A DNA stretch of 64,000 bases from Phlyctochytrium arcticum (taxonomy: Eukaryota; Chytridiomycota; Chytridiomycetes; Chytridiales; Chytridiaceae). Below the pieces are notes generated by a model. It saw only the letters and a program-made list of their open reading frames with translations, did not search any database and had not been told where the DNA came from. The DNA is taken from contig JAHLKI010000013.1 of assembly GCA_025602905.1 (NCBI GenBank), positions 372,001-436,000 on the forward strand, written 5' to 3'. Positions 5,385 through 61,700 of this stretch are shown here, piece after piece. Both the position numbers and the translations under genes were made by a program. Numbering within the stretch: the first letter of the stretch is position 1; each line of letters opens with the position of its first letter.

Positions 5385-6584
5385 ATGGCCGAGGGAGAGA
5401 TACAAAATGTTGGCCTCGCCTTTGGTATATGCATAGGAGCGGGCCTGGCAACGGCCATTGGGAGTGCCCTGCCATTTGTTGTGAATCACGCCAACCCATT
5501 ATACCTGGCACTCTCACTAGCACTGTCGGCTGGTGTGATGCTATACGTCTCTTTCGTTGAAATTTTTGTCAAGGCCGAGGATGCATTTGCGAAAACGGTA
5601 TGCTTACAGTGCTTTAATGTTGTTTATGCTATAAAACAAGTGCTGATTTCTTCTCTATTGTCTAGGTCCCTGCAGGCAGCAATTTGGGTTACATCTATGC
5701 CACGGCTAGCTTTTTCGGAGGAATGGCCTTTTGTGCATTACTGGATATCTTGGTGCACTGGTTACATCCGCAACATAACTGCTCGACTCTACCCCCAGAA
5801 TTGCTGGGACGCGATGCAGAACGTACTCCTTCATTACCACGTAGCGCGCGTGGATCCGAAGTCAGCATCACCCCCGAGGAGGATCAGATATCTGCGATTC
5901 ATGTTCCAGAGCCGTACACAAAGGATGATGTTGAATCTGTTCTTCCTGCTCCAAACAACGTAAGTGAAATGTCTGATGTGCGGGTGGTAGTGCCCTATAC
6001 TGATCTGTTGTTTAAAGCAGAGCTCCAACCGTCGAAGACAGAGCAATGCAAGCAAGTTGTGCATGTCAACTGCCTCGGCCAATCATCAGCATTCACATCC
6101 TGTAGACAAGTACGGTCTACACAGAATGGGGGCCCTGTCGGCAGCTGCTATCGCCATCCACAATCTTCCCGAAGGTCTCGCAACGTTCATGGCTACTCTT
6201 GCATCGCCCTCCCTGGGAGCTTCTCTGGCCGTGGCGATCGCCATCCACAACATACCCGAAGGCATTTGTGTGGCATTACCCATATTTTACGCGACCGGCA
6301 ACAGGTGGAAGGCATTCATGTGGGGAACCCTGAGCGGAGTCAGCGAGCCAATCGGCGCCCTGATTGGGTACGGCATATTGCGCGCTTCGGGGAGCAGGGA
6401 CGGGTTTAGCAATATGGCATTTGGCATCATGTTTGGCATGGTGGGCGGGATCATGGTGTTCATCAGTCTGGGCGAGCTGTTGCCGACGGCGCACCGCTAC
6501 TGCAGCAATTCGGGCAAGATAAAAGCGGCCATGGTGTGTGGGATGGCCATTATGGCCCTGAGTCTAGTTTTGTTTAAAATCTAG
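5385..6584 (+). CDS. ZIP-family metal (zinc) transporter, ZupT/GufA-like
   Basis: Moves Zn2+ or related divalent metals into the cytoplasm, across the plasma or an organelle membrane. Three exons: 5385-5597, 5666-5959, 6021-6584; both introns start GTA(A/T)G and are phase 0; 356 aa. The two signature motifs of membrane helices 4 and 5, HNLPEG and HNIPEG, are in exon 3 and supply the metal-binding His/Glu residues. About eight hydrophobic segments are visible. Between helices 3 and 4 lies an acidic/His-containing cytoplasmic loop (about residues 105-200). The start has an A-rich context (CAAAATGG). The second acceptor could also be three bases earlier (6017), adding one Gln. Which membrane it acts in cannot be read from sequence. 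Confidence 0.9.
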
Positions 6585-7010
6585 AGAGACAAATATATAC
6601 ATCCCTTATGTGTCCAGGTCTTCAAATTCTCCCGAGTTCCTGTGGCGACTCGCGAGACGAATCAGAGACGGATGGCCTGATTTCAAATGGTCAAAACTTT
6701 AAAACGACGCGAGGCTAAGCCCCCCGGAAGTCGCAGTTTGCCAGTTTCCGAAATTTCAGAAATCCCCGTTTCCGTATCCACCTTGCAGGTAAAGAATCCC
6801 CGCAGCAAGATCCCCGATCCTCCCAGCCGCACTATATAAGGGTGGGCGAGTAGGACCCTCCTCCCTCCCTCGTCGTTCTTGTTGCCCTTTACATATACTC
6901 TATGACTTTCCCGTAAGTGATCTGCAGCCCCGTTCGTGCTCCCTCTTGACTTTTGGACGTTCACTAAATTGTGTCCATTTTGCTAGTTAAAAAGTAGTTG
7001 CTTCAGCATC
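6585..7010 (+). promoter_or_regulatory. ENA-type ATPase promoter with TATA box and 5'UTR intron
   Basis: TATATAAG sits at 6833-6840, preceded by a C-rich stretch. A canonical GTAAGT donor at 6913 pairs with TTGCTAG ending at 6986, which would remove a 74-nt intron from the leader before the ATG at 7011. The region 6585-6830 shows nothing else I can support. Confidence 0.5.
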
Positions 7011-10000
7011 ATGCCATCTACATCAAATACCATCGTGGAAAGCACTCTGCCCGACTCCTTGGTCTGGCACACTGTTACTGTTGAACGGATATGCAGCTTC
7101 CTCGGCGTTGACACCGCACAAGGCCTTCACTCTGCTTCCGTCCCCGACTTACTCGCCAAGTATGGACCAAACTCTATTCGCACTACACGGGTACTCAAAT
7201 GGTTCCATGTTCTTATCCGGCAATTTATCGATGTGATGAACTGGGTCTTTTTCGCTCTGGGTGCTGCTGCCTTTGTCCTGGGAGATATTGCAACTGGTGT
7301 CATCTTTTGTTGTTTGAGTGTCATAAACATTTACTTGACATTCAATGAGGAGTATTCTGCGGAGAAAACACTGGAGGCGTTACGTGGATTGTCTTCGCCG
7401 ACCTGCACTGTTATCCGCGACGGCGTCGAGTCTGTGATTCCTGCCACTGATGCAGTCCCTGGGGACATCCTGGTCATCAAGGCGGGGGACAAGATTGCCG
7501 CTGATTGTCGACTGTTCCTGGCTAGTGGACTTCAAATCGATGAGGCTTTGTTGACGGGCGAGTCTGCCCCTGTCACTAAAAATTTGGATCTGCTCACGAA
7601 TGAGATCGAACCGTTGGGCGATCGGAAAAACATGGCCTACAGCTCCACGATTGTCATCAAGGGCCGAGGAATGGCCATCGTTGTCGCGACAGGAATGCAA
7701 TCCGAAGTCGGCAAGATTGCCAAATCACTACGGGACGCTGATGCAGAGTCGGGCGATAAGACGCATATTCAAAAGGCCTTGAACAAGATGTACTTTGCTC
7801 TGCTGGGAGTAGCCGTTTTACTCGTGTTGATTGTTTTAGCGAGCAACAAGTTTGTCGTTCCGTACAGTGTTGGAATGTACGCTCTCACCGCGGCCCTGTC
7901 CGTTTTGCCTGCTGGATTGACGACCGTATTGACGGTGACTTTGGTCTTAGGTGGGAAGGAGATGACCCGCCAGCGAGCTCTGGTACGCAAGCTGCGCTGT
8001 CTTGAGACACTTGGTGCCGTCAATGCCATCTTCTCCGACAAGACGGGTACATTGACCGAAGCCAAAATGACGGTTGTCCGAGTTTGGGCACCTTTATCTG
8101 GTCACTGTATCTTGGGCAGCGATGGACGCATCCAAAGAGCAAATGCTGCTGGCGATGAGGACGACACTCTGGCCGACGAAAAAGTTGTTCCTTCTGGGCA
8201 ACTCGAGGTGCTGATCCAATGCTGTGCACTTTGTAATACCGCCGCCCTCATCGAGCCATCGCCAATCAAGTCGGTCACTCCCACACCTGCAGTATCCAGT
8301 GACTCACTCGCCAAGCAACAACAACTGTCCAATGAAAGTATTTTGTCGGCAGCCGCACCATCTACCGGTGGTACTCCCACCGAACTTGCACTCCAAATAT
8401 TTGCCGATCGCTTCAATATGGCCAAACCCGTTTTGGAAGCTCAGGGATGGACTTTGATTCACGAACACCACTTTGATTCTACCATCAAGCGCATGTCGGT
8501 TGTCTACAAAATGCCCAACTCAGACGATTTGGCTGTATTTGTAAAGGGTGCCGCCGAGAGTGTCTTGCAGCTATGCAACAACGTAGATTTGGTCGAGGTC
8601 AATTCCGAGATTGAGAAGGGAGCAAGCAAAGGGTTGCGATCTATGGTGCTGGCGTTTAAACATATCCCCGCGGCTGCTGTTCAGCAAGGCTGGACAGGAC
8701 TGCAACGCTCTGAAGCAGAATCAGAACTCGAATTTCTCGGAATATGTGAAATTCAGGACCCGTAAGTAACCGACATCTTTTCAACATATGTTAGCTACCT
8801 TGCTGACTTTACCTGTTAGACCACGACCTGAAAGTAAAGGAGCCGTCAAGCAAGCACATCAGGCCGGAATTACTGTTCACATGCTGACTGGAGATCACCT
8901 TGCCACCGCAATCGCAATTGCCCGACAAATCAATGTATTACCCGCCACGTTCCCTGCTCATTTCGTCAACACCGGTCCCGCATTCGACGCTCTTTCAGAT
9001 GCAGAAATTGATGCGCTCCCGACCCTCCCGCTTGTAGTGGCGCGCTGCTCTCCCGAGACAAAGGTCCGAATGATCCGAGCGGCCAAACGCCGCGGCATGA
9101 TTAGCGCCATGACGGGTGACGGTGTCAACGACTCTCCATCACTCAAAATCGCAGACGTTGGGATCGCAATGGGTCTGAATGGAAGTGATGTAGCCAAACA
9201 AGCATCCGATATGATTCTCACCGACGACAATTTTGCCACCATTATCCGCGCCATAAAAGAAGGACGTAGGATTTACCGCAACATTCAGCGATTTCTTCTC
9301 TACTATTGGATCGGTCTTGCCGCTGGTGCGATTGCTATTATTGTCAACCTGTGGATGAAGGATCTGGACAATGAACCGATTGCACCTTTGACCACGGTCC
9401 AACTGCTCATTCTTGCCATTGTCATGGCCCCTCCTGCAGCCTCCTTGTCAAAACAGCCTGCCGCCCCGGGACTGATGCGCGAACCGCCCCGCCCTTCATC
9501 GGAATCGCTCTTCAACAAGGAGATTACTATGGACATGATCTTTTACACGTCTCTTACCATTCTTTGCTTACTGCTACCATTTTATATGGTTCTACTGGCT
9601 CTCGCCCCCGATGGCTTCGCGGGCCGGGGCTGCGATTTCCTCTACACGGACGAATGTGCTCCACTCCAAAGCGCCCGGACCGTTTTCATGGCCATCTTTA
9701 CATTTACCCTCGCCATCCAAGCCATCCATTGTCGCTCATTCCGGGATACGGAATTCTTCTCGGTAGCGGGTCTTCGCACCACAGCCAAAAACTATCTCTG
9801 GATCGGCTCTTGCCTGGTCGGCGTTCTCTACCTCGTTCTCTTCTCTGAAGTCCCCGGTATTGCCCGCAACGTCGGCATGCGTCCTTTGGGCTGGGAATGG
9901 GGCTTGATCGTCGGTGTCGTGGTACTCTACTTGTTTGTCGGCGAGCTGTACAAGGCCGGAAAACGGCGATGGATGAAGGTGCCGCAGGGTCAGATTGTTC

Positions 10001-17902: not shown

Positions 17903-18699
17903 ACCTCACTTTGATCCTCTCTTTGACTAGGAGTAGTAACTGTAGTGTCCTTTCTTTGCTAAGAAGATTTTAGTAGAGACGGTCCATATAGCGTCAAAAA
18001 ATCGGACATTTGCTTGGTTTACTTAGATGTTCCATCCGCGACCCTTTTATATGGTATACCGGGATACCAACGCCCATTTAGCGCGGCCAATAGGATTATA
18101 CGTGGCGAATGCGTCTGATTCTCACGGGTGGATGCCTGCGATGTAACGATATCCAACTGGCGCAAATTGATGCCATTCATCTTACATCTAATGAATGCAC
18201 GGCACAGGCTCATTACATCTTCCAATAGTGACTGAACAGGTCCAAGATCGACGGGCGTATGGTAGCTATTGAAAACGAATGGCTCGTGGAAGATGTTGAT
18301 CCATCACAAAGATAATCGGCCAAAATGCATTATGAGCACAGGCAAACAAATGGAACCGTCTTCGGATGAAGCACGGGATTAAAGTTCCAATTCTGGATTA
18401 TATATAGCGCTGTGTGATGGCTTTCGGTGATCGGTTTCGTCTTCATCGTTGAAGGAAATTATGGATACTTCCTGGTCGAAAGAGGCCAAATTTCCACAGC
18501 CTACCGAGAAAAGGTCAGCTCCTTGGGCCCATCTTAAGGCACAGCGAAAGAATAGAATATCGATACAGCATACTCGATCGAGAGTCAAGGGGTATATATA
18601 CATGGTGCTCAAGATGTGAGGGTGATGGCACAGTCATGCACTTCAAGTCGGAGATGTTGGAGAACAAGATCGATCTGTCGAAGCAAGCATAATCGCGGC
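17903..18699. other. Intergenic region upstream of the SERGEF-like gene
   Basis: No supported gene. Two TATA-like stretches face right: TTATATATAG at about 18395 and GGTATATATA at 18591-18600. The second lies about 100 bases before the preferred ATG at 18700. Confidence 0.45.
18591..18600 (+). promoter_or_regulatory. TATA-like element of the SERGEF-like gene
   Basis: GGTATATATA. If transcription begins about 30 bases downstream, the ATG at 18616 would fall before or at the start site, which supports ATG 18700 as the true start. Confidence 0.35.
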
Positions 18700-19795
18700 A
18701 TGCCTCTGTATGCGTTCGGGTCAAACTCTTATGGGCAGCTGGGGACCGGGAACAAGGAGGATGCTCATAAACCAAGTCAAAGCATCTTGCCACAATCTTT
18801 CCTGGATTCGACACCGCGCGTTATGACTGGGGGAGCCAATCACTCGCTCATTGTCTCTGCGGATGGGATGGTTTTCACCTGTGGCCGCAACGATGAAGGA
18901 CAACTGGGCCTTGAAGGTCCTGCCCGCGAGTCTTTCTGTGAAGTTGTGCTGGACTCGAGCGTTCCGAGAGAAGCTTGCGAAGCAAGATGTGGGTGGGATC
19001 ATTCACTCGTTACAGACAGCGACGGCAAAGTGTTTGGCTTTGGATCCAACGAATTCGGGCAGCTTGGGCTCGGAATGAGCAAATATGTTATTTTTAATCG
19101 CCCTCATATAGTATCTGTACCGGGTCCGGTCAGAAAGTGTGCTGCTGGTCTGCGACACTCTGTTTTGCTGTTGAACGATGGATCAGTTTGGGGCATGGGA
19201 TTGGAACGCTTTGGCCAGCTTGGGGTTTGGGTCAGACGATGGAGTGAGATCTACATATAAACCGCTTCGGCTGCCTTTACCACCATGTACAGATATTGCC
19301 GCTGGAGAGCATCATACACTTGGCCTTACGAGATCAGGGACTATCATTGGGATGGGCCGCAACCGCCACGGACAGCTCCTCCCGGCCACACCTAGCAAGG
19401 AGGTACGGGTGCCCGTCGAGGTCCGCAGTGCGGATGAGCAGCAAGTTTTATGGCAGATAGCATGCGGTTGGAGCTTCTCTGTCTGTATCAGCGTCAATGG
19501 CAAACTGGAAATGTGGGGCCGGGACGATCACCATCAGACGGCTGGCTCAAGTCGCTCAGAGGTGCATGAGGTCTCTTGTGGCAGCGAGCATGTTCTATGT
19601 CTAACGACTGCCAGCGCTTGCCTTGCCTGGGGCTGGAACGAGCATGGCAACTGTGGAGTGGGCCACTGCAACGATGTTACGAGTCCACAAACGGTTGTGT
19701 CTTCAGGCGTAACCAAGATTGGATGCGGATACGGACATTCACTTTTATACATTTCACCACCACCAATAATAGACAAGGCGGGAGTACACAACTGA
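18700..19795 (+). CDS. SERGEF: SERGEF/DelGEF-like RCC1-repeat protein, with a one-base frame break
   Basis: Seven-bladed RCC1-type beta-propeller, closest in my reading to SERGEF (DelGEF), which in animals binds the exocyst subunit Sec5 and affects secretion. The start MPLYAFGSNSYGQLG..KED aligns with the SERGEF N-terminus; an upstream in-frame ATG (18616) adds only a basic extension. Repeats recur about every 50 residues (SNEFGQLG, ERFGQLG), and the SERGEF-like VSCGSEH and WGWNEHGNCG are near the end. At the GGGG run 19222-19225 the frame must shift by one base: the first frame stops at 19260 while homology continues in the +1 frame to the stop at 19795. No intron can explain a one-base shift. 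It is either an assembly/sequencing error or a young pseudogene. Confidence 0.75.
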
Positions 19796-20868
19796 GTTGC
19801 AAGTTTCAATTGTTTAATCATTATTATTAGGAAAGACAATATGATGGAAATGTGTGATGGAAAATTGCCAAGTCATTTCACCGACCATCCAAAGGAGCGG
19901 GCCGACTCCAGCTTGGCACCCGTTTTCCAGCACTGGGTTGATTCTGCTTATCCCTGACGACACGCCTGCATTATCGCATGACTATCCTTTGCCGAAGCAA
20001 AAGTCACCTTGCGGACGGTGCTTTTTAAAGGGTAAGGTTTCTTCCTTATCAGAAAAGAAGAAAAGAAGCAGCAGAGGCGGGGGAACCTTTTTTTTTGAAA
20101 CCTGACGTTCCTTAACCGAAAAAATGAATTTCACGTTGGGAAAATTTCAAGGACCCCGCCCATACAAGCTGAGGCACACCGGCAGTATGCAATAAAGCTT
20201 TCGAATTTTGTTGAAGTTCCAACGTAGGTTCCATGATCCAAGAAATCTTCGGAATTCACCAGAAGGGCGTGAGTAGATTAAGTGAGGAATCCCGGGAATA
20301 CCCGTAAAATCTTTGATTCTTTAAAAACGCTATATGTACCTGGATATGGAGCATCTGGGGGTTAAAAGATTTGTATGATATCTAACCATTATATATATCT
20401 TGACATGTGCAAAATGGCGAACAAGGAACTATCATGATGTGCCTTAAAAAGATGCATGCAAATACCTGCTGAATAACGAGCAAAACCTTTTAGTTCACGA
20501 AAGTTCACAGATTGATCTAAGCGTTGGAATTCACAACATACGCTGTATTTTGCCGTATCATTTCCCATTCTCTGACCAAAAAATAAACCCAGAGCACCTT
20601 ACTCGCGATGACAGCACGCGTGCGCGTTTGGCAAGCCCCCCGTTTCCCATCGCTCTCGACTCCTCTTGGAAACTTCCCGAACGTTCCCAGCCAATCAAAC
20701 AGGGCCGCGAGCAGATGGCGTGCGATGAATTTTTTTTTCCGAATAGCGACGTCCCGCGCCTCAGCGCTTGGCGGTATAAAAAGACCTCTGTTGAGCCGCC
20801 CGCCCCAGAACATGCCGACATCCACGACATCCACGACATTCACGACAACCACCCACTGAAAAACAAAA
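19796..20868. other. Intergenic region upstream of the Fanzor gene
   Basis: About 1.07 kb without a supported gene. Purine-rich sequence with a run of nine T is at about 20085-20096. A short tandem motif based on GACATCCAC lies at about 20817-20845 in the presumed 5'UTR. I looked for terminal inverted repeats matching the far side of the Fanzor gene and found none by eye. Confidence 0.45.
20775..20782 (+). promoter_or_regulatory. TATA box of the Fanzor gene
   Basis: TATAAAAA lies 87 bases upstream of the ATG at 20869 (context AAAAATGC), following a GC-rich stretch. The spacing suits a short 5'UTR and suggests the gene has its own promoter. Confidence 0.5.
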
Positions 20869-23800
20869 ATGCAGTGTCCTCATGGGAAACCGTGGGGGCA
20901 CTGTTTCGTCGCGGATTGCGCTCGCCAATTCAATCATAGCACCACGGGGGGGGGGGGGGGGGGGGGGCCGCAACGCCAACGGGAGGCACCTGCTGCTCGA
21001 CTTCGTCTGGTAAGGGGGTGTGGATGGTGGTCTACGCATGTTAAACACACGACTCACCTGCAATTTCCTTCTCATTCTCAGAGCCAGGTCCATCATTCAA
21101 TCCCAAGAATGCCAAACGTATCCCACGCCCTTCTCAGCCAGGCAGAAAGTCCAAACGCCCTCGACCTCGCACACCTTCTCCACGCACACCCTCTCCACCT
21201 CCTTCGGCGTCGTCTCGACCTCAAGAACCGTTGTTGTCCTCGTCTCCAATGCGAGAAGGAGAAGCTATCCAAGGACGCAGTAAGTTCAACAAACCCAGAC
21301 GGAAACGAGAGTCACTCACAACTAAACCGTTACTCCGTCATTACTAGGAAGACAAAAGAACCCTTGCGATTGCCACTTGCTCGACTCTACCATTCAAAAT
21401 ATGACCGTCCATTACCGCTCTAACCAGAGGGAGTGTTTGCTGCACGGCAAGTCGTTGGCTGAACGAAAGGAGCTCAAACGCCAGATCACAAGAATCAAGA
21501 CCGGCGAGCCTGTACGATCGTCTACAGGCAGCGCCCATTCCAAGTCGTCGACTTCTCGCCCACTTCCAGGAGGTCAACCGACTCTTTCAGCTCCCTCACA
21601 ACCATTGGATTTAAGCGTCACAGAGCGACCGCCGACAGTGGTAAACGAGACGGATCAGGTAGACGAGGAGCAGGAGGTTCAGGAAGACCAAATGGGGGAG
21701 AATGAGGAGCAGCAGGAACAGGAGGAATCAAACGCAAAGTCGAAATTCAGCGTGAAGTTGGGACTCACAAAAACAGTCAAGTCGGAAATGGGCGAACGCA
21801 TCGTGGACGCCGTTCTGAGGTGAGATTTTCTTTGGAGTCTGTGGAGGATTGCCCGAACTTCTGCTCAATTGTGACGTCTGAATAGCTTCAACGAAATCAC
21901 CTACCATGGTCTCAAACTACTCTCCGTATACACCATCATGTTGGGGAAGACGCTTCCACCCTTCGACCGTCCGGATGGGAAAAGGCTCATTCGACAGTGT
22001 TTCTACGCTGTTTCGGTGACGACGAGACAAACCGTACCGGCGACACCGGTGGATCCTCGCCTCAAAAGAGCCTTCGATGAGTACCGAAAACAGCTTCCCG
22101 AACAGGATCGTAAATGGCCTTCCAGAGAAGCGTTGAATCAGTCTTTGACCTACCACACCACCACCGTCATGGCTGACATTCGTCGTCACATCGTCGTTCA
22201 TCTGGTGAGCCGAATCACAAAATACGCCAGGATCAAGCTCACCCACATTCTTGGATCATCCCCTTCCAACGTCTCCTTGGATCCCCGCGACGTAAAGGAG
22301 CTTGCTCAGCGATTAACCAAGCGCCTTGTCTACAATGAGAAGCAAGCCTGGGTAATCGCCAAAAACAAGAATGAAGACCCTCCCCCCATTCCTGCTTGGA
22401 CGAGACCTTCTGATGTGTACGACATTCTCAGGCTTCCAACGAGCCCCCAACGCAAGTCTGATCAACACCTCTTCAGCCTTCTGTCCACTCACAAGGAACT
22501 TGCGACTGCTGTTTCCCAGGTCTTCGACTCTGTGGTCCATCGCGTCGAAGGCAGCGGTGGTCTTCCGATTTGCTCCAGCAAAGCCCGCGACCAATATAAC
22601 GAAACGGGAACAGAAAACCCATGGCTGAAACGTTACTATCCCCTGCATCGTTTCCTTCTGCGAGAAATGGAAGAACTGAACGGGCCAGTAGACAACAACA
22701 TTGCCGGCGATGGTTCAGAGGAACCCATACGGATTGCGGAAGCCGCTCCTCACATTCATCACGCTTGGGCTCGGCGGAAGGTGACAAAAATATGTGGACG
22801 ACACCCCGAAGTCTTCGTTTCCCGCCGTTCAAGACGGCGCGCCGCAATGGCGTTGTTGAAGGCAGTGACCAACCGGCTGACCTTGGAAGCCAACAGTGAA
22901 GGTAAAGTATTGCGAATCGCCATTATGAAGTGCGTTCGGTAGGACTCATCAGAATCAAACAGGCTCGAGTCGAGGGAATAGAAGCTGCAAACGCAGAGGA
23001 ATATTGCCTGAATCCATCATGACGGAGGTAAAGACAAAGGCAGCAAAAACAATCCGAAAACTGGAAGAAGGGAGCTTTTGCTTGAAAGGGACCGGAAAGC
23101 CCACTGGCCAGGACCCTTCCCGCCTGTGGACGTTATTGCCACAACCTTCTCTTCGCCGCCGCCACATGCTCTTGGACACCACAACCCTGGTAGAACTCTA
23201 CAAAATTATCGACTGTCGACGGGCCCTCGAATACGAAACGGCCAGACTAGCCGACCGGAAAAAAATTTGGGCTCAAGTTTTTCATCTCGAACGTGTGAAG
23301 GGCGTGGACTTTTCTGAAAGGTAATTGTTCGCCGTTTCTGTGGAAGTGTTGTTGGCCGATACTGATAGAGTTTACGTGCAGACCATTGCAAGGGAAGAGA
23401 CGCGAGTTCACGAATATCATCAGCACCGACGGGGAGGCTTGTTCCTTTATTTGTCGTCGACCGAAGGCTGGAGCAACTGGAAAAGCGGATCCTCCATCCC
23501 CAAGATCGGTTTGTTTTGACGAAGAAGTGGTCTTCCGATCTATCGACCCGGGCGAGTCGGATGTTATTTCCGGATTTATTCCGAGAATGACCTTTGACCC
23601 GGACGACCGTCACCGTCTGTCACCATCGTTTCAACCGGATATCGACCAACAACGGATGCCTGCCACTAGTTCGCCGCACCAACAACGGAAGGAAAAGGCA
23701 AAAATGGGCAAGGAAACAACATTTGGCATGTCCGGAAAGGAGTGGCGGCACCTGGCCGGACACAACTTCACAGACCAGTGGCGAGACGCCTGGAAGAAGG

Positions 23801-24521
23801 AGGTTGCCGCCGTGGCGGGTGTATCTATTTCCACACTTACTTCCAGTATCACCACACCCAAGACGGTCATCCTTCAAACGCATCTCACACATCTGCAAAA
23901 AACGTTTCGTTCCGTCGACTTTTTGACCACGTACCATTCGAAAGAGCACCGGTGGAATTTTTTTAAATACCGGCAATCCCAAAAGGCGTTGAGCGAAGTT
24001 GTCAGACGGGTTAAAGGCGATGACTTACAAAGGGAAATCCAGGGTTATTGTTGCGTTTGGCAATGGAAAATTTGGTGGTCGGAAAGGAAGTAGACGAGCT
24101 CCCCTGAAGAAAATCAAAAATCATCTTTCCACATATGTCACTTTGGTGCTGATAGATGAATATCGTACCTCGCGAGCATGTTCAGGCTGTTTGAAGGAAG
24201 AATGCTGGCAGGATGACGAGAGCCAGACACCACCGCCTGTACCAAGTGTCACCGATGATCCAGATGATGTTGAAGAGCTGAGATGGGAAGCCCTCGATGA
24301 AGACGACGACAACAATACAGCCAAGGATGACAAGCAGAAAGAATGGTAAGTCGGAAACACATGTCGCAAGGATTCCCAATTCTTCGACTGAAACACATCA
24401 CAACAGGGACGTCGAACCGATGTATCGATATATTTACAAAGGGAGCCGTGAAGCGATCTATGCCGTACGACATTGCCAAAAATGCTACACGACATGGAAC
24501 CGAGACACCAACGCCGAATAA
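20869..24521 (+). CDS. Fanzor1-type RNA-guided endonuclease (eukaryotic TnpB homologue)
   Basis: Predicted programmable DNA endonuclease of the Fanzor/TnpB group, guided by an RNA usually made next to the gene. Seven exons with GT-AG introns: 20869-21009, 21082-21279, 21348-21819, 21886-22901, 22963-23320, 23382-24345, 24407-24521; about 1,087 codons. Order: Cys/His-rich start, Pro/Ser/Arg-rich basic stretch (likely nuclear signal), Glu/Gln-rich linker, long helical region, WED-like block (RLWTLLPQP..RHMLLDTTTL), STDG, RuvC-I SIDPGESD (Asp at 23545), a RuvC-II region VIVAFGNGKFG, DEYRTS then zinc pair CSGC (24179-24190), an acidic insertion, second pair CQKC and RuvC-III WNRDTNA (Asp at 24504). 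Two problems: a 22-G run in exon 1 leaves exons 1 and 2 one base out of register, and one base must be skipped near 24010-24045. Catalytic motifs are otherwise intact. Confidence 0.82.
20946..20967 (+). repeat. 22-base poly-G tract in Fanzor exon 1
   Basis: Uninterrupted run of 22 G coding for polyglycine. The downstream exon-2 frame needs a different phase than this length gives, so the true length may differ by one or two bases (sequencing slip) or vary between cells. Confidence 0.9.
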
Positions 24522-24537
24522 CAGAATCGGCTAGCAC

Positions 24538-25552
24538 CACCAGATTGCACGTCTATTTTCAATTCAGTAATGCCAACGGCGAATGTCTACCCGGAATCTT
24601 CGTTGACGGTGTTGCCCTCGATGAGACAAGAGTGTATACGAACTGCGCAAAGCGGTGAAAAAGGCGTTCTCAAAAGCGTTGAAGAGAGTGGATCCCAGCA
24701 AGCTGCTCGTCCATGCCCACGCCAATAACGACGAATTAGACCCCAGTAAAGCCTTAATGGTGGGCCCAAAGGTTTCGACGTTAAGAGACGGATGGAACGC
24801 ACCCGCTGCTCCTTGTGATGCCGGAGCGAGGACCACCGGCAACGACTGGCAAGAGAGCATTTGTGAAGCGCTGCAATCTGGCTCTATGAGCTTTGTTATT
24901 ATAGCGTCGCACAATCCGTCTCTAACTTCTGTATAGTAAGTCTATCTTCTGATGAGACCCACCAAAATCACAATCGAAAGCGGAAGTGCGATGGGATGCT
25001 CTAAATAAAATCATCGGAGACAATGAGGATGCTGATGAAGCGAATTCGATAGGGTACTCCCTGACTTGGTTTCGAATGAGTGGGTTTATCAGAAGGAGAG
25101 TGTGCTCTCCACCCAACACTGACTTTGGAGCAACCTTAGAACCACCTGCATCAGACCTTGTGCACATACGGACGCATTTGGTGGAGTGGGCCAAGCAAAA
25201 TGACTGTACTTCAATGCTCGTATCTTGGCGTGTGTTTGTGTCTCTTTTCCTGGTGATTTGCAGATCTTGGCCGAAGGTACAAAATTCAAACGTTGATGAC
25301 AAGGTAATGTATTGTTGAATTTGAAACAAAGGACTTTCAACAAGGGCAAACACAAGTCCTTCTCGGATGTAAGGCAGTCGCTGACGTGGAAAACCGAGGG
25401 AGTGTTTATGGAATCGCTACAAACTATCTGACCTGGTTTTAACTGAAGAGCCACCACGGCAAAATCGAGACCGCACTTTCTTTGGATGATATGGGGCGCT
25501 ACCTAACCGGGGAATCAGTCGGCAAAATTGTTGAAAAAAATAGTACCTTGCT
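24538..25552 (+). pseudogene. Crinkler (CRN)-like effector/nuclease remnant
   Basis: Scattered frames in the same orientation resemble a crinkler protein: an N-terminal ubiquitin-like header (24541 to about 24910, with a frame break near 24635), a poorly conserved middle (24986-25320), and a C-terminal piece (about 25317-25500) with an E-x-K and following Q..L pattern like PD-(D/E)XK nuclease crinklers. Stops and at least three frame changes interrupt it and there is no start Met, so it cannot make a full protein. Crinklers are common in chytrids and oomycetes. It begins about 20 bases after the Fanzor stop. The family call rests on pattern, not on a search. Confidence 0.35.
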
Positions 25553-26281
25553 GTAAAGATGGAATCTTTGCAAGAGAGGAGCTCAGAGGTGGATTGTACA
25601 TTTGCCGGGTGCTTGCCCTCTCACAGAATGGATGTCCATCCATGTTAGTGTTATATGATAACATTACTTTCATTTGCATCCTTCAATTTAAAATAAAAAG
25701 CGGAATAGGGATTCCGACAGAATTTGAGGGTGCACCTATTGACGCGTGACAGACTGTGTACTATGCGACGACCAACCAATTTGGGCATGGATCACTGTGG
25801 ATTTTTTTAGTTTGCGCAAATAGAAGTTCCATGACCCTTTAAATGTAAGGGTCTTTCCAAACTGCAATAAGTATCATATTAAAACTATACTGGTCCCCGG
25901 CCCCACTTTTAGGCGCTATAGGGGCCGTGTCCGGTCGCCAGACATCTTTATAAATGACATGAACAATCCCAAGATAGCATCAATAGAAATGAGCGTTCAA
26001 TAGGAAATCCCACTATTTTCCCGGGCTGCAAAAGAAAGGTTCTGTTTGTTTGGAGAAAAGCCGCCGTTCGGCCCCACCCTGAACTCGCGTATGATGTGAT
26101 AAGAAGTTTCGAATATCTACACAAGTCCGCTCTGTGTCCCCTTTTGGTTTATCCAGCAAACGAAAGCTGCCTGACCGTCATAGCGCTTTAGTTTATATTT
26201 ATTAGCCGCCTTTTACCTGTTCGCAGCTACCACTTCTCCAGTCTCATTGCTCATTACTGCACTTTACAGCATCCATTCACA
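25553..26281. other. Intergenic region upstream of the seven-TM gene
   Basis: AT-rich, about 730 bases, no supported gene. A run of weak frames at 25528-25749 has no recognisable domain and may be the last of the crinkler remnant. Confidence 0.4.
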
Positions 26282-27524
26282 ATGAGCACACCAAAAATCG
26301 ACCTCGGGATGGCTTGCGTATTGGGTTTCCAGGGCATCATGAACGAATCGGGAATTCCAACGGATATGAGCGCAGCGATGGGATTCTGCGGAGGGGAAAT
26401 GCAACGTTTCGGAACTGCTGTGTCAAGGGAGATCTCCTATCCAGCTATGGTGACAGGATTATGCGTGCCATTCGTAGCAGCTGGACTTGTCCTCTCCATA
26501 ACGAGACTCTTTCGAATTGTCAATCCCCGAGCTATATTCTTGCTTGCCGGCAATGTGGGATCCTTGTTGATCTTGTCCATGATCATATACGCCTATCAGA
26601 TTGACGGTGTCAACTGGTTTGTGTCGGATAGTGTTGGGGTTGCGGGATTTCTTCTACTGCTGGTAAGCTTCTTGAATTGTAACGCCATTTCTGTCCCTGT
26701 ACTGATCTACGAATCCACAGCTTACCCTCCCATTAGCCGGCATCATCCGATTTACGGCAGTGATTGTAAATCGCCAACGACGGCAAATGGTACAATACAG
26801 TGTATCTGGAATGCTTTTGATTTGGACAGTTGTCGCCGGATACGTAGGCGGTAGCGAAATCCACAAGTCGACCGAGTCACCCGTCAAATTCACACCAATT
26901 TTCTATGGCCTTTGCTTCGTTCCCTTGGTCACCTACGCCAGTGCGGGTTTTATTTTCTTCTCCTACAACTTGTCTCGGCTCAAGGCGCAGACGGGCGAGA
27001 ATGTGCTGCATACTCTCAAAGTAGTAAACGACGGGATGATGGTTGCCGTCTTGATCCTGACTGTCATCCAGATGTGTGTTATGCTTCCTCTCCGCAGTAA
27101 GTTTCTGAGAGTCATTTTTGCTGATGACTTTTGCTTGATACTAAAATTTGGCGTAGCTACCTATTACAGTAACTCAGTAGCATGTCTCAATGTATCAGCA
27201 GCTCATTTAGTCGAAAACGTTTTCGAGTCCATCACGAATCTGGTCCGTGGACGAGCATTCTTTACCACCGGCAGTTCTGGTGGTGCAAACCGTTCGGGTC
27301 AAAACATCAATATGCCGATAATGGCGGCTGAGCGCACACCAAGCCGAGGAACAGGAGCGACCTTTAGCAATCAATCGAGTGGTTCTTTACGGGGTGGGAG
27401 TGCTAATCGGTCGGTAGAGTCCTTGGGCAAGTCACGGTTGGCAGATGACGGCCATCACAGAAGTGCCCATGGAAGAGCATATGGCAATCATCCCAACAAG
27501 CAACGCAGCGCTGATCGAGTATGA
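26282..27524 (+). CDS. Seven-transmembrane protein of unknown family
   Basis: Three exons: 26282-26662, 26721-27096, 27157-27524, joined at GTAAGC and GTAAGT donors; 374 aa. Seven hydrophobic segments are visible, near residues 57-76, 82-104, 112-138, 152-170, 190-212, 238-257 and 262-280. A short extracellular N-terminus (about 55 aa, two Cys) and a Ser/Gly/Arg-rich cytoplasmic tail of about 85 residues follow a receptor-like plan. I see no rhodopsin DRY or NPxxY, no retinal lysine, and no Ste2/Ste3 or cAMP-receptor signature. A sensory receptor is an inference from topology only. It lies just upstream of the PNS1-like gene on the same strand. Confidence 0.75.
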
Positions 27525-53813: not shown

Positions 53814-53989
53814 TACCGACCCATAAGCTCTTGGAGCAAATTCCTTATTACCGATTCTCCTCTTGCAAATGAGGAACAGGATGTACTCGTAAACGCCATC
53901 ACGCACAAACCTCACTCGCACCCCGTCATACCGTATGCGCAGCGATCGACACGATGAGATTCTGTCAATACATCACTGGTTGTCTCAGC

Positions 53990-54892
53990 GGCAGCCGAGG
54001 CCTGCGTTTTAAGGAAGCAGTCAACGTGGCCAGAGTCATGTGTAATGGCAGAGACTTTGAGACCCTAAAGATCCTTTCAAAGTATAATTCTCCGACGACG
54101 ATTAAAGGATGCAGGGCCAAACAACTTCTTCTTCTTGCGTTACCCTCCCTTGTTCAACACTTAGAGACGAATTACATACCCACAACTCAACGCTCACCCC
54201 AGGTTTCATTTCCATCATGCATCCACACATCCATCCGACCAAACGATTCCGTCGTAGATTTGGCCACCAACTCGCTCACAGTACATTGACGTTGTCTAGA
54301 GTTCAGACTGCAAATCCACCGTCTTTGTACTTCCCACCGACGTTATATGGTCTCCAATCAGCCTTCAAGTTACCATTGTCAAACAGCACAAACTGCATCA
54401 AGGTAGATACCGGAAACTTTAAATGACATTAATTTGGGATGTTGAAAGAGACTTGATTGCTTAATTTTGTTTTTCTATTGTTGCCAAACAGTCCCTCCTC
54501 CATCTGGAGGGCGTTTTCGCCAGTCTATCAACTTGAAAAAATCATATATTCAAAACGTCATCTGGCCTACAGAAATCCAGTCAAGGTACGCCTCATCTCT
54601 ATGTGTCGTCTGGAATGCTTTTTTCTAACTTGAACGTTAGGCAATATAAATGGACTGCAGGTCCTGGGAGGCAGCCGAACACGTCTTCAATCGTCTCTTG
54701 TCACGGCCCCTAAGCATGTAGATCTCCTCAGTTTGCGCGCAGAACCCAGCGCGCTCCCTACAGCACCAGTAAAGAGGGGCGGACCCAATGCCATTAAGTT
54801 GTTCGCGGTTGCCGAGCAGGAAAAGATCCGGCAACGCAAGATTGCCTATTATGGTAATCTGAAGCCCGAGCTTCTGAGAAAGCCTGACTAGG
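53990..54892 (+). pseudogene. PRRC2-like truncated copy, array unit 3
   Basis: Leader element at about 54093-54123, leader intron ending near 54491, and the exon-1 segment (54492-54585) are present, but the ATG is gone and a four-base insertion breaks exon 1. The second exon (about 54643-54892) stays open: NGLQVLGGSR, SLRAE, then the module (PNAIKLFAV, EQEKIRQRKI, YYGNLKPEL) to a stop. Without a start it is best called a pseudogene. Confidence 0.65.
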
Positions 54893-55434
54893 CACCGAGT
54901 ATCTCAAACTGTCCCACGTTTTTGGTTCGTGATGTCGTTGCTATCGATTATGATACCAAGGACAGTTCTACCGATCATGATACTTCCAATAACGTCGACT
55001 TGGAACTCGCGTTGGTCTCTGGTGATCCATCCTGTACATGTACCAGTAACAGTGGGGACACCTCGATATTGGCGGATATTCAGTCGTTGGACTTCCTAAC
55101 GGCCCATATCCCGACGGCGGCGGAAGGACCCCAGGACCCAGCCCCCCAGGACCTAACCCTCACTCGTCTCCGCACCGACGAACAAGAAACTGCCTCCTCA
55201 AAGGCAAATCAAAAGAGCGCAGGCTTGCGCACCACCATGCGGACCTTGATTCGTAAAACCATGCGAAGTTTTGTTTCCGTACTCGTAAAGTTGGTCGTAT
55301 GTAGATAATAATAAATCAAATTTTGTGTGTCCGAAGACCATTATAGCTGCCTATTCTACACCAGATTCTATAGCACATCGAGAATATACATGCCGGTCGC
55401 AAAACCGACCATAGATCGTGGTTGTGGGAAGGCC
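54893..55434 (+). other. Array sequence between module copy 4 and the DPH6 relic
   Basis: A frame at 54922-55308 (128 codons, Asp/Thr/Ser-rich, ending in a basic KKTMRSF-like tail) has no recognised domain. It may derive from the disordered last exon of the PRRC2-like gene. Confidence 0.3.
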
Positions 55435-55560
55435 ATGAGCAAGCAAGCAAAAGGCGGCTTTCTCATATACTGGGGGACTGTAGTCTTACACTACAAATAC
55501 TTTCTCGCAACAAGTCATTGGATGTCGTTCGGTGAATCACCTTCCACCTCTCAATTGTTG
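55435..55560 (+). pseudogene. DPH6-like pseudogene, array copy 3
   Basis: Starts ATGAGCAAGCAA as the intact copy does, then TCATATACTGGGGGACTGTAG and CTACAAATACTTTCTCG. The PP-loop codons are disrupted and only about 125 bases remain. Confidence 0.7.
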
Positions 55561-56009
55561 GGAACTCTGGCGATTTCGTAAGCCAAACTCCGCTCCGCTC
55601 CCTCCTATGCGGGCCATACCCAGCACCAGATCAAATTCCTCCCATCCCTCTTCGTCTTCTCCGTCTCTCGATCGCTTGCCAATAGTAGGTACAGTGGTGT
55701 AGCATGCGATGAGTTTTGTATATCCCATCTAACGTTTCATATCAATGTCCAAGTAGAGATGGACGATCACACTCCAAGCACAAAACCTCCGGGCCATTCT
55801 CAGCACCCCCATCTGGCCCTCCATCAATTCGACTCCATCTTCCCAAGCTCCTCACTGAGACATTTCCCCACGCAGCTCAAAAGGAGTAGTCAAACCGAGC
55901 CAGAACCAGCCGGATCGTCATCACAAATCTAGTTGGGACATGCCATCCTGGGAAAGCAAGGATAACCTGGACTATGAGCACATATTAGATACCAATGGCA
56001 TCAGCGTAA

Positions 56010-56330
56010 AGCAGCAGCAGTCAAAAGGGGCACACCGCATGCCTTCGAGATGTTCTCTGTTCAAGACAAGATCGAACATTCTGGTGATTTGAAACCCGGA
56101 CTTCAGATCAAGCTCCTTTATCCTTTTCGCCACCTGTTCAACTGAGAACAATCTTGAAATGATCACAAAGCCTGGAACAGCTACTGTGTATAAAATGTTC
56201 GCAGTTCGCGAACAAGATAAAATTCACGAGGCAAAGATTGGCCATTGGGGTGATATGACGCCGGAACCTCGTATCAAACCCGACTACGACGCACAGACAG
56301 GGACACTCACTGGTGATAACGACCCCTAAA
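56010..56330 (+). pseudogene. Two array module relics (copies 5 and 6)
   Basis: Copy 5 (about 56020-56120) keeps VKRGTPHAFEMFSV and DLKPGLQIK with a deletion in the middle. Copy 6 (about 56170-56330) reads VYKMFAVREQDKI, HWGDM, RIKPDYDAQT to a stop. Neither has a start or splice signal of its own. Confidence 0.55.
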
Positions 56331-56713
56331 CATTTGGAGGAAATTCCTTCTTACAGAACCTCCACTTGCGAATGAGAAACAGGATGTACTCGTAAGCGCC
56401 ATCACGCACAAACCTCACCTGCACTCCGTCATCCCGAATGCGCAGCGATCGAGACGATGAGATTCTACCCATAGATCGCCGGTTGTGTCAGCGCCAGCCG
56501 AGGCCAGCGTTTCAAGGAAGCAGTCAACGTGGGGGATGCTGGTTCTCGCCGTGGGGTTTATAGTCCTGGGAGATGGCCAGAGTCATGCGTAATGGCAGAG
56601 ACATTGAAACCCTGAGGATACGTTCAGCGTATAGTTCTCCGACGACGATCAAAGTCGGCAGGGCCAAACATTTCTCCTTCCTTTTTCCTTTTCCCAACCT
56701 GTACACCTTTACA

Positions 56714-56845
56714 ATGACTGCAAAGCCAGGCACCCCCAATGCTTATAAGATGTTCGCAGTTTGCGAACAAGGCAAGATCAGAAAGCAAACGATTGCTTAC
56801 TGGGGAGAGTTGAAGCCGGAGCTCTCGTACGATAACATCGGCTAG
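56714..56845 (+). CDS. Possible 43-aa module-only protein behind the array leader
   Basis: Intronless ORF starting 44 bases after the conserved leader element (56641-56670), context TTTACAATGA. It consists only of the module (PGTPNAYKMFAV, KIRKQTIAYWGELKPEL) and a stop. A further module fragment starts at ATG 56847 and breaks by frameshift at about 56920. Like the 91-aa gene it may be a true small protein or a relic. Confidence 0.3.
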   Translation: MTAKPGTPNAYKMFAVCEQGKIRKQTIAYWGELKPELSYDNIG

Positions 56846-56846
56846 C

Positions 56847-57040
56847 ATGAAAAAGGGTGCTCCAAACGCCTACAAACTGTTTGCGATCCAGGAACAGGAA
56901 AAAATCCGCAAGCAAAAGCAGCTTACTGGGGAGATTTGAAACCAGAGTTCTGTACCAGACCAGACTATGAAATCCAACTGGCAGCCCGATATTCGAAAGC
57001 CCAGGCCAGCGGTCTCCGGAAACCGCTAACCTGAAATATG
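56847..57040 (+). pseudogene. Array module relic (copy 8)
   Basis: Reads KKGAPNAYKLFAIQEQEKIRK from ATG 56847, then a small deletion puts TGGGGAGATTTGAAACCAGAG out of frame; the remaining KPDYE-like part continues to about 57040. Confidence 0.6.
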
Positions 57041-57541
57041 CTACCTTGGGAAAAACCGGACTTTGCCTCGTCCGGGGCGCCCACTTTGTCCTCCCTAGCA
57101 TCAAACAGATTTATCAAAGCAGAAGCCGCCTCCCGACCTCCAGCTCACAATTTTCCTCCCACACAAAGCATGGTTCCTCTTCCTGCAGGTGCGCGCATGG
57201 CTCAGGTTCAGGAAGTGGTCGTGCCCCTGCACCCATGTCTCGTACTAGCTCATTTCAATCTGGGGACGCTGGCTTCCGATGCGGTAAAGCTGTAACGGAC
57301 CGCTTTCATCCAAGTTGTTGTGCTTGGCAAAATCCGTAAAAGCCGAAAAGGCATTCTTCACGAAGATGACGATCTGTACATATAATAAACATATGTCATA
57401 CGGGATTCAAGCACAACCTCACTCCCACCCAACTCCAGATTCAGCACCATATTCTGTGTGTTATTTGAAAAAAAAACCTTTGTAGCGAAATCGGCTATAG
57501 TCCGAAGGTAGATCGCGTTTGTGGCAAGATTCTTCCGAGCC

Positions 57542-58354
57542 ATGAGCAAGCAAAAGGTTGCACTCTCATATACGGGAGGGAAAGACTGTAGTCTTGCCCT
57601 ACAAATACTCTCTCGTGACAAGTCAGTGGAGGTCGCCCGCTTAATCACCTTCAAACCCCGATCCGCAAAACCCTTTTTGAGCCATCCCCTCCCACTAATT
57701 CAACTTCTTGCTCAAGCACTTGATATACCCCACCAAGTGTTGACGGTCGACGGACCCGACTTTCTCGGTTCATATGTTTCCCAACTTCGCTCCCTGAAAG
57801 AGGAGGGGTTTGATCAGTTAGCTACCGGGGATATCGAGGATGTTTGTAGCGATTTTATGGTAACTACTTGTTTGGAGAGCGAAACTTGAGGTTGGAGAGT
57901 CTTACGAATGGAATTATAGAGTCGGGCTGCCGAACAGGCTCAAATTACGCTCACTCGGCCTCTGTGGCAAGTACCCCGGCCTCAACTTCTTTCCTCCTTG
58001 TTTGAAACCTACAATCTATCCATCATCATCTCGTGCGTCAATATGGATTTGGTACCGGAACAGAGTGCCCGTCAGTTGGTTGGCAAAGTTTTGACAAGAG
58101 AACTGTTGGAGAAGATCCTGCAAGAGGAGGGGTGCGAGAAAGTGGATGCTTGCGGCGAATTTGGGGAGTATCATACCATGTGTGTTGACAGCCCCTTACA
58201 TAAATATCGCGTGGATCTGGGCCAGGGTACTATCCAGCAAGAAGGAAGTTTCTTGTACTGGGATTGTAGTGCATCACAGAAACTTCTGGTAGAAAGGCAC
58301 GAAATACTATCAATAACCAAATATCCGGCGAGCCCGATCCTGTCTTTTGAGTGA
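57542..58354 (+). CDS. DPH6-like diphthine-ammonia ligase family protein (PP-loop ATPase)
   Basis: Adenylating PP-loop enzyme of the diphthine-ammonia ligase family, whose eukaryotic members finish the diphthamide modification of eEF2. Two exons: 57542-57859 and 57920-58354; 250 aa, the size of the short single-domain members. The PP-loop reads SYTGGKDCS near residues 8-16, where SGGKDS is usual. EEGFDQLATGDIED matches the EG...GDI region, LTRPLW matches the PLW motif, and CGEFGEYHTMCVDSPL matches the signature near the C-terminus. The long C-terminal RidA-like domains of yeast Dph6 are absent. It is the only intact copy in the array. An older in-frame GTG start upstream was ignored in favour of the ATG. 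Confidence 0.8.
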
Positions 58355-58764
58355 GATTTTTGATTCGAGCGGGACTATCTCGTACGATTACCGAAGCCCA
58401 CCGGCCACACTACCATAGGATCCACCTGTGACCTATCACCAATAAAGGCTGCAACCCCAGAGAAACACATCGGTGTTGCCACTGTTCTTTTGATCGAACT
58501 GGTTTTGCCGAGATGGACTTTCTGTAACCTGACAATTCTGATACCTCTTCTTGAACTCCTATGGTCCGTTCACCTGTTCACTTTGGCAGAAGCCCTCTGT
58601 GGGCCAGTGACCGGTGAAAATTTGCGAGAAACACGTAGACATGGCACGTTTTATCTCATAGAACATAGAATAAGCTTATAGCAAGTAGATAGTGCAAGAA
58701 TGATTGAGATACTGCATGAATAACATACTGTATTGTGAAAAAGGACACACTTCTGCCCACCGTC
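58355..58764. other. Convergent intergenic region
   Basis: About 410 bases between the DPH6-like and TRAPPC10-like stops. One weak 63-codon frame (58490-58681) has no recognisable feature. Confidence 0.4.
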
Positions 58765-61700
58765 TCACAACTCCTTCAAATTAAGTGCTATCTGAGCATG
58801 CAAAGGTGCTTTGATATCAATGCTCAAGCTGCTTGACGGATAAACTGCATCCACCAAGTCCGAGCTTGAGTAGATGGCAATTTTGGGAAACTCCAGTCGT
58901 CCGGTTTGCACGGGTAATAAGACTATGTTAAACGGCGCAATAGCATCCTCGCTTCGCTGTAAAGGCAGCGGCATCAGGTACAGCGCATGTTGGCAGATGA
59001 AGCATTACGCCAACACGTACCTGCAAAACAAAATTCTGCTTCCGTTTGCCTCGGATGAGCCATGAGGTGCAGTCGGTAAAGATTTCGTAGCTCAAGTCCA
59101 ACGCTCCAAGTTCGGCAAACCAATGAGCTACTGAAATTTGGAGTTGGCAATTGATGGAGCTGCCAATGGAGGTGTTCTGAACCAACAATGCTGGATCTTC
59201 GGGCTGTAGTGTAGCCGCCAAAAGAATCTTTGCGTGCGATAAGTGGGAAGACTTTACAAAAGTCCAACAAATCACTCGTACATACTTGACATGATGATAC
59301 GGGTGTTCGTACGGTCAAAGTACTCTGGTTGATTATGTCCAATGCCTCAGCCATCTCAGCTCTGACTGGCGTAATATTCTATAAAAAGGAGCGCGTTAAT
59401 GTCGGGAACGGAAGTGACGACATGTGGGGTAGTACTTGGATAAAATCCGCTAAGGAAACTCGGATTTGGGTGGCTACGTCCTGCTTTTGCTTACGCAGAA
59501 AATAGTCAAGATGTCCCAAGTCCATCGCCGAAACGTCCATCGAAAGCTTTACGGCGTATGTGTCATAAGATAGGGATGGGAAGACTAGAGTGGCAATGGC
59601 ATGTCGCAGGAACGCCGAATACGGTTGCATTTCTTTTGCCACAATGTGCGCTTCCAACTTCGAAAGAATGAAATTTTCCACCTCTATAAATATCTGGTCA
59701 ACTTGGTTCAACGCATCTTCAATATCTGGGGACGGTACCTTCACGAAGCGACCGGTAGCGAATGGCCACTTGTACCCAGTTCTGATCCATGTCGCCGGAT
59801 TGCGAAAAGGTCTGTACCTCTGTATCACAAAACAGATCAGTTCAACTCCCTCTAGTTCTTCAAGAGAAAAGCCTACTTTCGGCTGGAGCGTTCATCAGAC
59901 GATAGAGCACAGGAATGCTTTGCCCGCTATGAATGAGCTAGGGATCCATTTAGCTCCAGCGGCAATATTCTTGTCAGACCGAATTGCTCCTACCTTATTA
60001 CTGATGTCTGATAATGGGAAGGCCATGGAAGGTGCGCCCACCATGGACATGTCCAGTAGTCTAATAGGTATTTGGGAGATACCTCTCAGAATAAATTGCA
60101 GCAACAGTCTAGGCTGTGAGAGTGAGCGGGAACAACCGCCTATTCCCATCTTCAAGCACATACCCTTGAGGACTCTCCTTTGTGATGATTGCTACGTGCA
60201 GCGGAGGTGCCAAGCTGATATCACTTGTGATGGCGGTGTGGAAGCGCTTCCCCTCTGGAGTTGAATACGACAGAAGAAGGCGCACCTGGACGAATGGGTA
60301 TATCGTTTATAAGCAGTCCGATGAGCGGGTTACCGAGACATACCTTGTGCTCTATACCCTGACTTTCCGAGTAATCGCCTAGGCATATGTTGAAGGTCAC
60401 CAGCTCATGCTGTTCTACGGGAGGTAGAACGGTTTGCCCATCGACGGTGTCGATATTGAGCTCACTGGAGTGAGAGATGTCTGCAAATTTCTTTGGATTA
60501 CTACAAATGTCTAAGATGACATATCGAGCTCTTCGTGCTGACCTGATTTTTGGATTTTTCGAAAGGAAACTGATTTTGGCTTGGTGAAAGTCAGATTTGT
60601 GATTGCGAGAATCTGCAGTCGTGCTTCAGTCCAAGCATGTTCATTGGAGGATAGCTGCAGTCGCAATTGGCGAATAGGATCTCCCTCGATGGCTAAAGAA
60701 AAACATCTTGAGTATGTTATCATTCTCATGTTCTAATTTAGCGAGCTACTTTGTTCTGGCAAGGTAATAGTGACTCCAACTGGCACGGGAGTTCCGACAA
60801 TCTTGAACGATCGCCGCGCGCGATACGATAGACGTAGTTTTCCGGTACTAACTACGATTTGTTCGGAAGTGTACGTTCCCGAGGTAGTGATTTTCTATGA
60901 TGGAAGGCATCGGCAACACAATCAGGACGTAACGCATTCTATGTTGACAATACCTGTCCCATCAAGTTGATCACATTGAGCCCGTGCACAATCTTCACAT
61001 TGGTGGCGTGAACACGAACAGTCATGCTTTCAGGGCCTAAAAGGTCTATATGCATCTCTTCCAAAGTATACTCCTGATCATAATAATGGTTAAGGCAACA
61101 GTGGAGATCCTGAATGTTGGCCACCGACCTTGGGCAGTATGCTGCGAAATTCGATCTGCATAGTGACGCCAGCATCATTCGCAATATCGTTCACGACAGA
61201 GAGGATTTGTAGCGACGCGATCGCATTATCTGATTTACTCACGACTATGGAAGGCTCAGGTTACTAGCTGGTTTCAATAACCAGGCGCTTTAACAGATCC
61301 TTTACCATTTTCCGCATGTTTTGTTGCCCAAATGAACTCATCAGAGAAATGACTCAAGCGGTCACTCTCCAGCAAATCCGCGTTCGCGACAATGTGTAAA
61401 CAAACCTCTAAATACGTGCAGGAGATGGTTAAGGATAACAATCAAAATGAAAAGAAAGGACGTTTTCGCAATGAGTGAAGGATATTGAGTAGTCCTCTGC
61501 AACTTCTTCTGGCAGATAGCTAGCTTCTCCATGACCAGCAAGTCTAAGCCTGTCCATCCATTTGCCGAATACTTGTAAACCATACTATCCCAGATGGCGA
61601 CGGCCTCCTGAAGACGTTCCCGAGAGCTGAATAGTGTCAAAAGATGTTCATTGATAAAAGCACAAAACGACAATCGCTTACTAGTATAGATGAGCAATAT

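Follow-up and report, generated by a model that had tools for sequence, protein, structure and literature searches.

Fanzor proteins, RNA-guided enzymes of mobile elements that cut DNA, have been known in chytrids since the description of SpuFz1 from Spizellomyces punctatus, a protein of 633 residues that is encoded by a single open reading frame (ORF); its element is about 2.1 kb long and has terminal inverted repeats (TIRs) of 33 bp (PMC3627910). Two published definitions of the family are a DPG motif combined with a catalytic glutamate that has moved to a site six residues ahead of the zinc finger (PMC10711439) and the pattern D-X(125,275)-[TS][TS]-XX-C4 zinc finger-X(5,50)-RD (PMC3627910). 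In S. punctatus, the region from the stop codon to the right end of the element encodes an RNA whose scaffold is 75 nt long and whose guide consists of 14-15 nt from the flanking DNA (PMC10432273). The third catalytic aspartate of SpuFz1 lies on a helix, and Arg-631 (R631) beyond it contacts DNA (PMC11423790). Here we describe a Fanzor gene of Phlyctochytrium arcticum, a chytrid of the order Chytridiales, at 20869-24521 (+ strand) of a 64,000-nucleotide stretch, called the window, which corresponds to bases 372001-436000 of contig C13 in an assembly of 31.48 Mb and 91 contigs; this assembly is the genome searched throughout. Judged by its sequence and its relatives, the gene is a genuine Fanzor gene, probably of the Fanzor1 type. 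The copy in the window is best read, with a probability of roughly 0.9, as a degenerate member of a P. arcticum family of intron-rich Fanzor1 elements, truncated at its 3' end, broken in frame and most likely inert.

Results

The gene consists of seven exons separated by six GT-AG introns, all joined in phase. Its spliced product of about 1,070 residues carries the Fanzor motifs in order, in agreement with a preliminary description made from the sequence, which had proposed a multi-exon Fanzor1-type gene with clean introns in a chytrid. The RuvC-I DPG (23545..23553, + strand, as are all features below; residue 766), which by homology would contain the first catalytic aspartate, and the relocated 'alternative' RuvC-II glutamate (E971, 24158..24160), provided by DEYRTS at 24155-24172 and placed six residues ahead of the first zinc cysteine, correspond to the two features of PMC10711439. 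The zinc pairs CSGC (24179..24190, residue 978) and CQKC (24474-24485, residue 1056, exon 7) are followed by RD with the third catalytic aspartate (24504-24506, residue 1066, exon 7). The pattern of PMC3627910 is therefore recovered as D766, TS at 974-975, two C-x2-C pairs, five residues and RD, with the finger split by 74 residues. The upstream VIVAFGNGKFG, termed RuvC-II-like in the preliminary description, is probably the site of the canonical TnpB glutamate, by the spacing reported in PMC10711439.

Protein searches, each scoring only about 8,000 candidates, matched the window protein to two unnamed proteins of Borealophlyctis nickersoniae, HK104_006940 (P0003) and HK104_006022 (P0004), at E 8.3e-198 and 1.1e-185 with 40-45% identity over most of the protein, well above what chance would give. 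Both group with it in a tree (93/93, not a starred branch). P0004 shares all RuvC and zinc motifs and an acidic insertion between the zinc pairs with the window protein, and scores 33.0 bits for PF07282 against a cut-off of 26.3 bits; unlike the window protein, it has a full C-terminus and a zinc-pair gap of 100 residues. Profiles of the family alignments matched PDB chains of SpuFz1 (8gkh) at E 8.2e-5 (profile A1) and 3.4e-14 (profile A3), the latter across the RuvC domain and zinc ribbon, and of GtFz1 at E 1.6e-6 (A3). SpuFz1 and GtFz1 both outranked Cas12 and TnpB chains. The PDB Fanzor chains matched are labelled Fanzor or Fanzor1, and the comparison and the tree contained no Fanzor2. SpuFz1 is likewise a chytrid Fanzor1 with the relocated glutamate; the window protein differs from it in its larger size and seven exons, and no TIR was recognised by eye around its gene.

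DNA and protein searches of the genome gathered the family at six dispersed loci, the window among them. The copy at C2:692k is 98.2% identical in DNA and matches window 18404 to 24516. That at C56:20k (97.1%) matches 20471 to 23290 with a 1.2-kb interruption, and that at C13:321-329k (77-85%) has an interruption of about 5.3 kb. The copies at C7:272k (97.9%) and C15:284k (72%) match from window 23348 and 23753 on, respectively. All six are damaged. The C2 copy has three in-frame stops and indels of 4, 1 and 5 bases; the C56 copy has one stop and is interrupted by an insert whose inverted repeats are 61 bases long, with a 9-base repeat of the target; and the C13:321-329k copy has lost 26 bases, has other small indels and contains an insert that lies between direct repeats, with target repeats of 5 bases. 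In the C7 and C15 copies the 5' half is missing and exon 7 carries 1-base indels. By locus, the inserts in family copies are a solo copy of a 239-base repeat with 5-base target repeats (L021 ~7519-7752), a larger insert that has this repeat at either end (L022 4776 to L023 103), and the insert of 1.2 kb with its inverted repeats of 61 bases and target repeat of 9 bases (L020 ~6235-7429).

The window gene, which had been described as near-complete, lacks its 3' end. Similarity to the C2, C7, C13 and C15 copies ends at 24514-24516, just past the third catalytic aspartate. Beyond 24516 these four copies carry on with coding sequence for AARNI-x-FLFWY and then with a block at the right end that consists of GCTGGGATTGCCACGTGACGGCATC and, after it, ACACATTACT or close variants. 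Past the block their flanks diverge from the first base, so that all four stop at the same base. A genome scan allowing up to three mismatches found the block at exactly these four places, and the reversed control at none; at the same tolerance it is absent from the 64-kb window. The stop codon of the window gene (24519-24521) sits in unrelated DNA, and the DNA at 24530-24800 that stands in place of the coding sequence occurs once in the genome. Only 4 residues follow the third aspartate, compared with 51 in P0004. Loss of this C-terminal region should abolish activity because, in SpuFz1, the third aspartate lies on a helix and the DNA-contacting R631 lies beyond it (PMC11423790). By analogy with SpuFz1 (PMC10432273), the right-end block may be the 3' part of a guide-RNA gene, so the window copy probably lacks both a complete nuclease domain and a guide RNA of its own. 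A 117-base 3' match found at several loci was considered as the end of the element and rejected, as the other copies continue and only the window copy stops.

The only internal defects are the two frame problems that had been noticed before, a run of 22 G at 20946..20967 in exon 1, the length of which varies between copies, and a break at 24034/24035 in exon 6. The same first exon in the C13:321k copy has no G run. The break at 24035 is absent from the C2 and C7 copies, and this fits mutation as well as error. The public P. arcticum protein DFS34DRAFT_116035 reads as the window gene; its gene model spans just 842 residues and ends soon after this break.

Comparison with the diverged copies gives clear protein-level constraint in the past of the family. 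The ratio of nonsynonymous to synonymous substitution rates (dN/dS) against the C13:321-329k copy, the most diverged long copy, was 0.235 over 930 codons (dS 0.489, dN 0.115), with a value of 0.117 where exon 6 encodes RuvC-I; for the C15 copy it was 0.191 over 180 codons. Among the coding indels relative to C13:321-329k, 11 of 17 are multiples of three, with the unaligned parts of exons 3 and 7 uncounted. These ratios and indels point to a family in which the protein was maintained for most of the time that the copies diverged, with decay setting in afterwards. For the near-identical C2, C56 and C7 copies, ratios of 0.397, 0.844 and 0.487 were obtained from 23, 22 and 19 changes, too few to decide. 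The earlier suggestion of recent function is supported for the past of the family; the idea that this copy may still work is not supported.

The acidic insertion between the zinc pairs is longer than the roughly 45 residues first estimated. The gap comprises 74 residues with 23 Asp/Glu in total, and its acidic part (24191..24345) contributes 52 residues up to the intron, 20 of them Asp/Glu. Zinc-pair gaps of 74-100 residues were found in all four chytrid sequences measured (the window, 74; paralogues on C28 and C1, 81 and 74; P0004, 100), compared with 22-42 in five others (four metagenome Fanzors at 22, 22, 24 and 42, and P0011 at 36; P0002 was not included). In a profile alignment the gap of SpuFz1 is about 34 residues and not acidic. 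The long gap is thus a trait of the sampled chytrid clade rather than of this gene, and the insertion, proposed as distinctive, is so at the level of the clade. The C28 and C1 paralogues are distant (37% and 32% identical in exon 4) and share the acidic insertion, the DPG and the relocated glutamate; unlike the window gene, they have no intron inside the insertion. The C1 paralogue is open through both exons read, and P0010 (DFS34DRAFT_30699) covers part of it. PpFz1 of Parasitella parasitica has an insertion in its RuvC domain that is shown to bind a cyclophilin, in contrast to the acidic zinc-ribbon insertion here; with PpFz1 as a loose parallel, one might guess at a regulatory or docking role.

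The segment common to the window and C2 (18404..24516; L021 1301-7433) aligns in one blastn match of 6,150 columns at 98.2% identity, at a uniform level throughout its 6.1 kb. This fits segmental duplication of an element already inserted, which the 3' loss would have followed or accompanied. The segment includes an RCC1-repeat gene at window 18556-19792 (Pfam PF00415, PF13540), now in two overlapping frames and duplicated with the Fanzor gene at C2; the RCC1 part has a further match at 86-88% on C3. This C3 match extends only to window 20041, so no empty site could be read from it.

Possible signs of mobility are the six dispersed copies and the one right end at the same base in four of them. 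The left end is weakly placed: similarity to the C56 copy begins exactly at GAATAACGAGCAAAAC (20471..20486), with differing DNA before it, and the end GAATAACGAGC at 20471 rests on two contexts (window/C2 and C56), the C13:321k copy falling short of it. No transposase, TIR or target-site duplication was established, the TIR having been sought by eye. A search for an empty site with the DNA past the right ends (C7, C13 and C2 flanks) found none; the C7 flank is single copy, the C13 flank enters an unrelated repeat from position 86-98 on, and the C2 flank is partly common to C15 and C23. The truncation junction (24516..24522) reads GAATAAC, the same seven bases as 20471-20477 at the inferred left end; this likeness was noticed post hoc, is not clearly longer and may be chance. 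A dispersed repeat at window 53917-59039 (91% over 2.7 kb) also lies directly upstream of the C56 Fanzor copy.

Folding of right-end RNA was no better than that of shuffled sequences (z -0.91, -0.56 and 0.72 for longer pieces; -1.29, 0.39 and -0.80 for short ones). A six-pair hairpin in the right end is paired in all 24 cells and includes a single two-sided change, a result equalled by 129 of 500 shuffles and suggestive only. An Rfam search of 18000-27000 gave no match.

The gene has its own TATA box, as proposed, recognised by sequence at 20775..20782 and 94 bases upstream of the ATG; the C13:321k copy likewise has TATAAA about 100 bases upstream of its own ATG. Window 20601-20726 resembles (73-78%) the DNA upstream of another TATA box on C29 (L042), after which no Fanzor exon was found in the stretch read. 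Exon 1, MQCPHGKPWGHC..., occupies 20869..21009, its frame broken by the G run, and exon 2 (21082..21279) is stop-free and spliced in phase. Exon 3 (21348..21819) encodes an N-terminal C-x-C...H...C...H motif, similar to one present in P0006-P0008 and P0011. Exon 4 (21886..22901), an open stretch of 355 residues with 11 exon-level matches in the genome, and exon 5 (22963..23320) lead to exon 6 (23382..24345), which contains RuvC-I, the alternative glutamate and the first zinc pair. Exon 7 (24407..24521) contains the second zinc pair and third aspartate and is cut off at 24516. Elsewhere, a tRNA scan of the window gave none, scans for bacterial promoters and terminators gave 0 and 0, and the downstream ORFs at 24625-27518 matched no Pfam family.

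The genome search with PF07282 did not list the window locus (15 matches, 13 above the cut-off). At least 15 matches suggest several Fanzor-like families in one chytrid; one of them is an open frame of 731 residues at C8:349045 (L032 4995-7190). An ORF of 623 residues at L026 3455-5326 has, by eye, a copia-like reverse transcriptase part that runs in frame into a Fanzor-like zinc ribbon.

Discussion

The observations are best joined by the following scheme. If the living ancestor worked like SpuFz1, its protein would have bound an RNA encoded at the right end of the element, flanking DNA would have supplied the guide, and the RuvC site would have cut double-stranded DNA. The window copy appears to have spread inside the 6.1-kb segment with the RCC1 gene remnant, as the match to C2 indicates, and not by clean transposition. 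Ending directly after the third aspartate, and having lost the C-terminal region and the right end, it would most likely be inert.

Several results weigh against this account. The window protein alone matched no Fanzor chain in a PDB search and scored 17.3 bits for PF07282, under the cut-off of 26.3; Fanzor matches came only with the family profiles. The acidic insertion and truncated end plausibly account for the low score. A structure model of the orthologue, not of this copy, was poor (mean pLDDT 47.9, pTM 0.33, RuvC mostly below 50). Of three pairs compared, just one shows the right-end block to be clearly better conserved than the coding DNA next to it (C7-C13, 94.9% versus 75.0%; C7-C15, 89.7% versus 84.5%; C13-C15, 85.0% versus 86.2%). 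Neither a transcript nor a guide RNA was seen, and the assembly may be wrong at 24516.

If sequencing or assembly errors had produced both frame problems and the 3' truncation, the gene would be intact in the living fungus. A run of 22 G is hard to sequence and varies in length among copies, and the rest of the frame is open. The preliminary description allowed for a working gene if the two frame problems are sequencing errors; it did not reckon with the third defect, namely that all sequence of the element past 24516 is gone. There, coding sequence is exchanged for DNA that is single in the genome, the annotated protein P0001 from this contig ends at the 24035 break as well, and the other five copies are all damaged in other ways, so that decay is the rule here. 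We consider such an intact gene improbable. Smaller still is the chance of a domesticated short Fanzor, an expressed protein that would bind DNA or RNA but not cut it, for instance by using the right-end RNAs of other copies in trans. The D-E-D residues, the zinc pairs and the promoter TATA are retained, four right ends persist in the genome, and the idea of trans-acting loci was raised for SpuFz1 ghost elements (PMC10432273); against it stand two frame breaks upstream of the truncation and the lack of clear constraint relative to the near-identical copies, with their few changes. That the gene is a chance likeness or a non-homologous zinc-ribbon protein, as single-sequence scores below curated thresholds might suggest, was already disfavoured and is hardly credible given that P0004 passes PF07282 and SpuFz1 and GtFz1 outrank the Cas12 and TnpB chains.

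Among the papers listed in a literature search, none pairs P. arcticum with Fanzor in its title or abstract. These proteins may already be part of a broad 2023 Fanzor survey by Jiang and colleagues. The novelty lies in a lineage whose genes are large and split and whose zinc ribbon has an acidic insertion, and not in the mechanism. A further idea, to our minds doubtful, is that in this chytrid lineage of proteins of about 1,000 residues the acidic segment regulates RNA-guided cutting, by mimicking DNA or by docking a host factor, and that the short right-end hairpin is the 3' part of the guide-RNA scaffold.

In practical terms the window copy has little to offer. From the right end mapped at four loci, a guide RNA could be predicted and then tested in a relative with an intact gene. 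The family illustrates routes of decay, by truncation, homopolymer change and insertions of other elements, and it extends Fanzor1 to chytrids in which the genes are large and rich in introns and the zinc ribbon is interrupted by acidic sequence.
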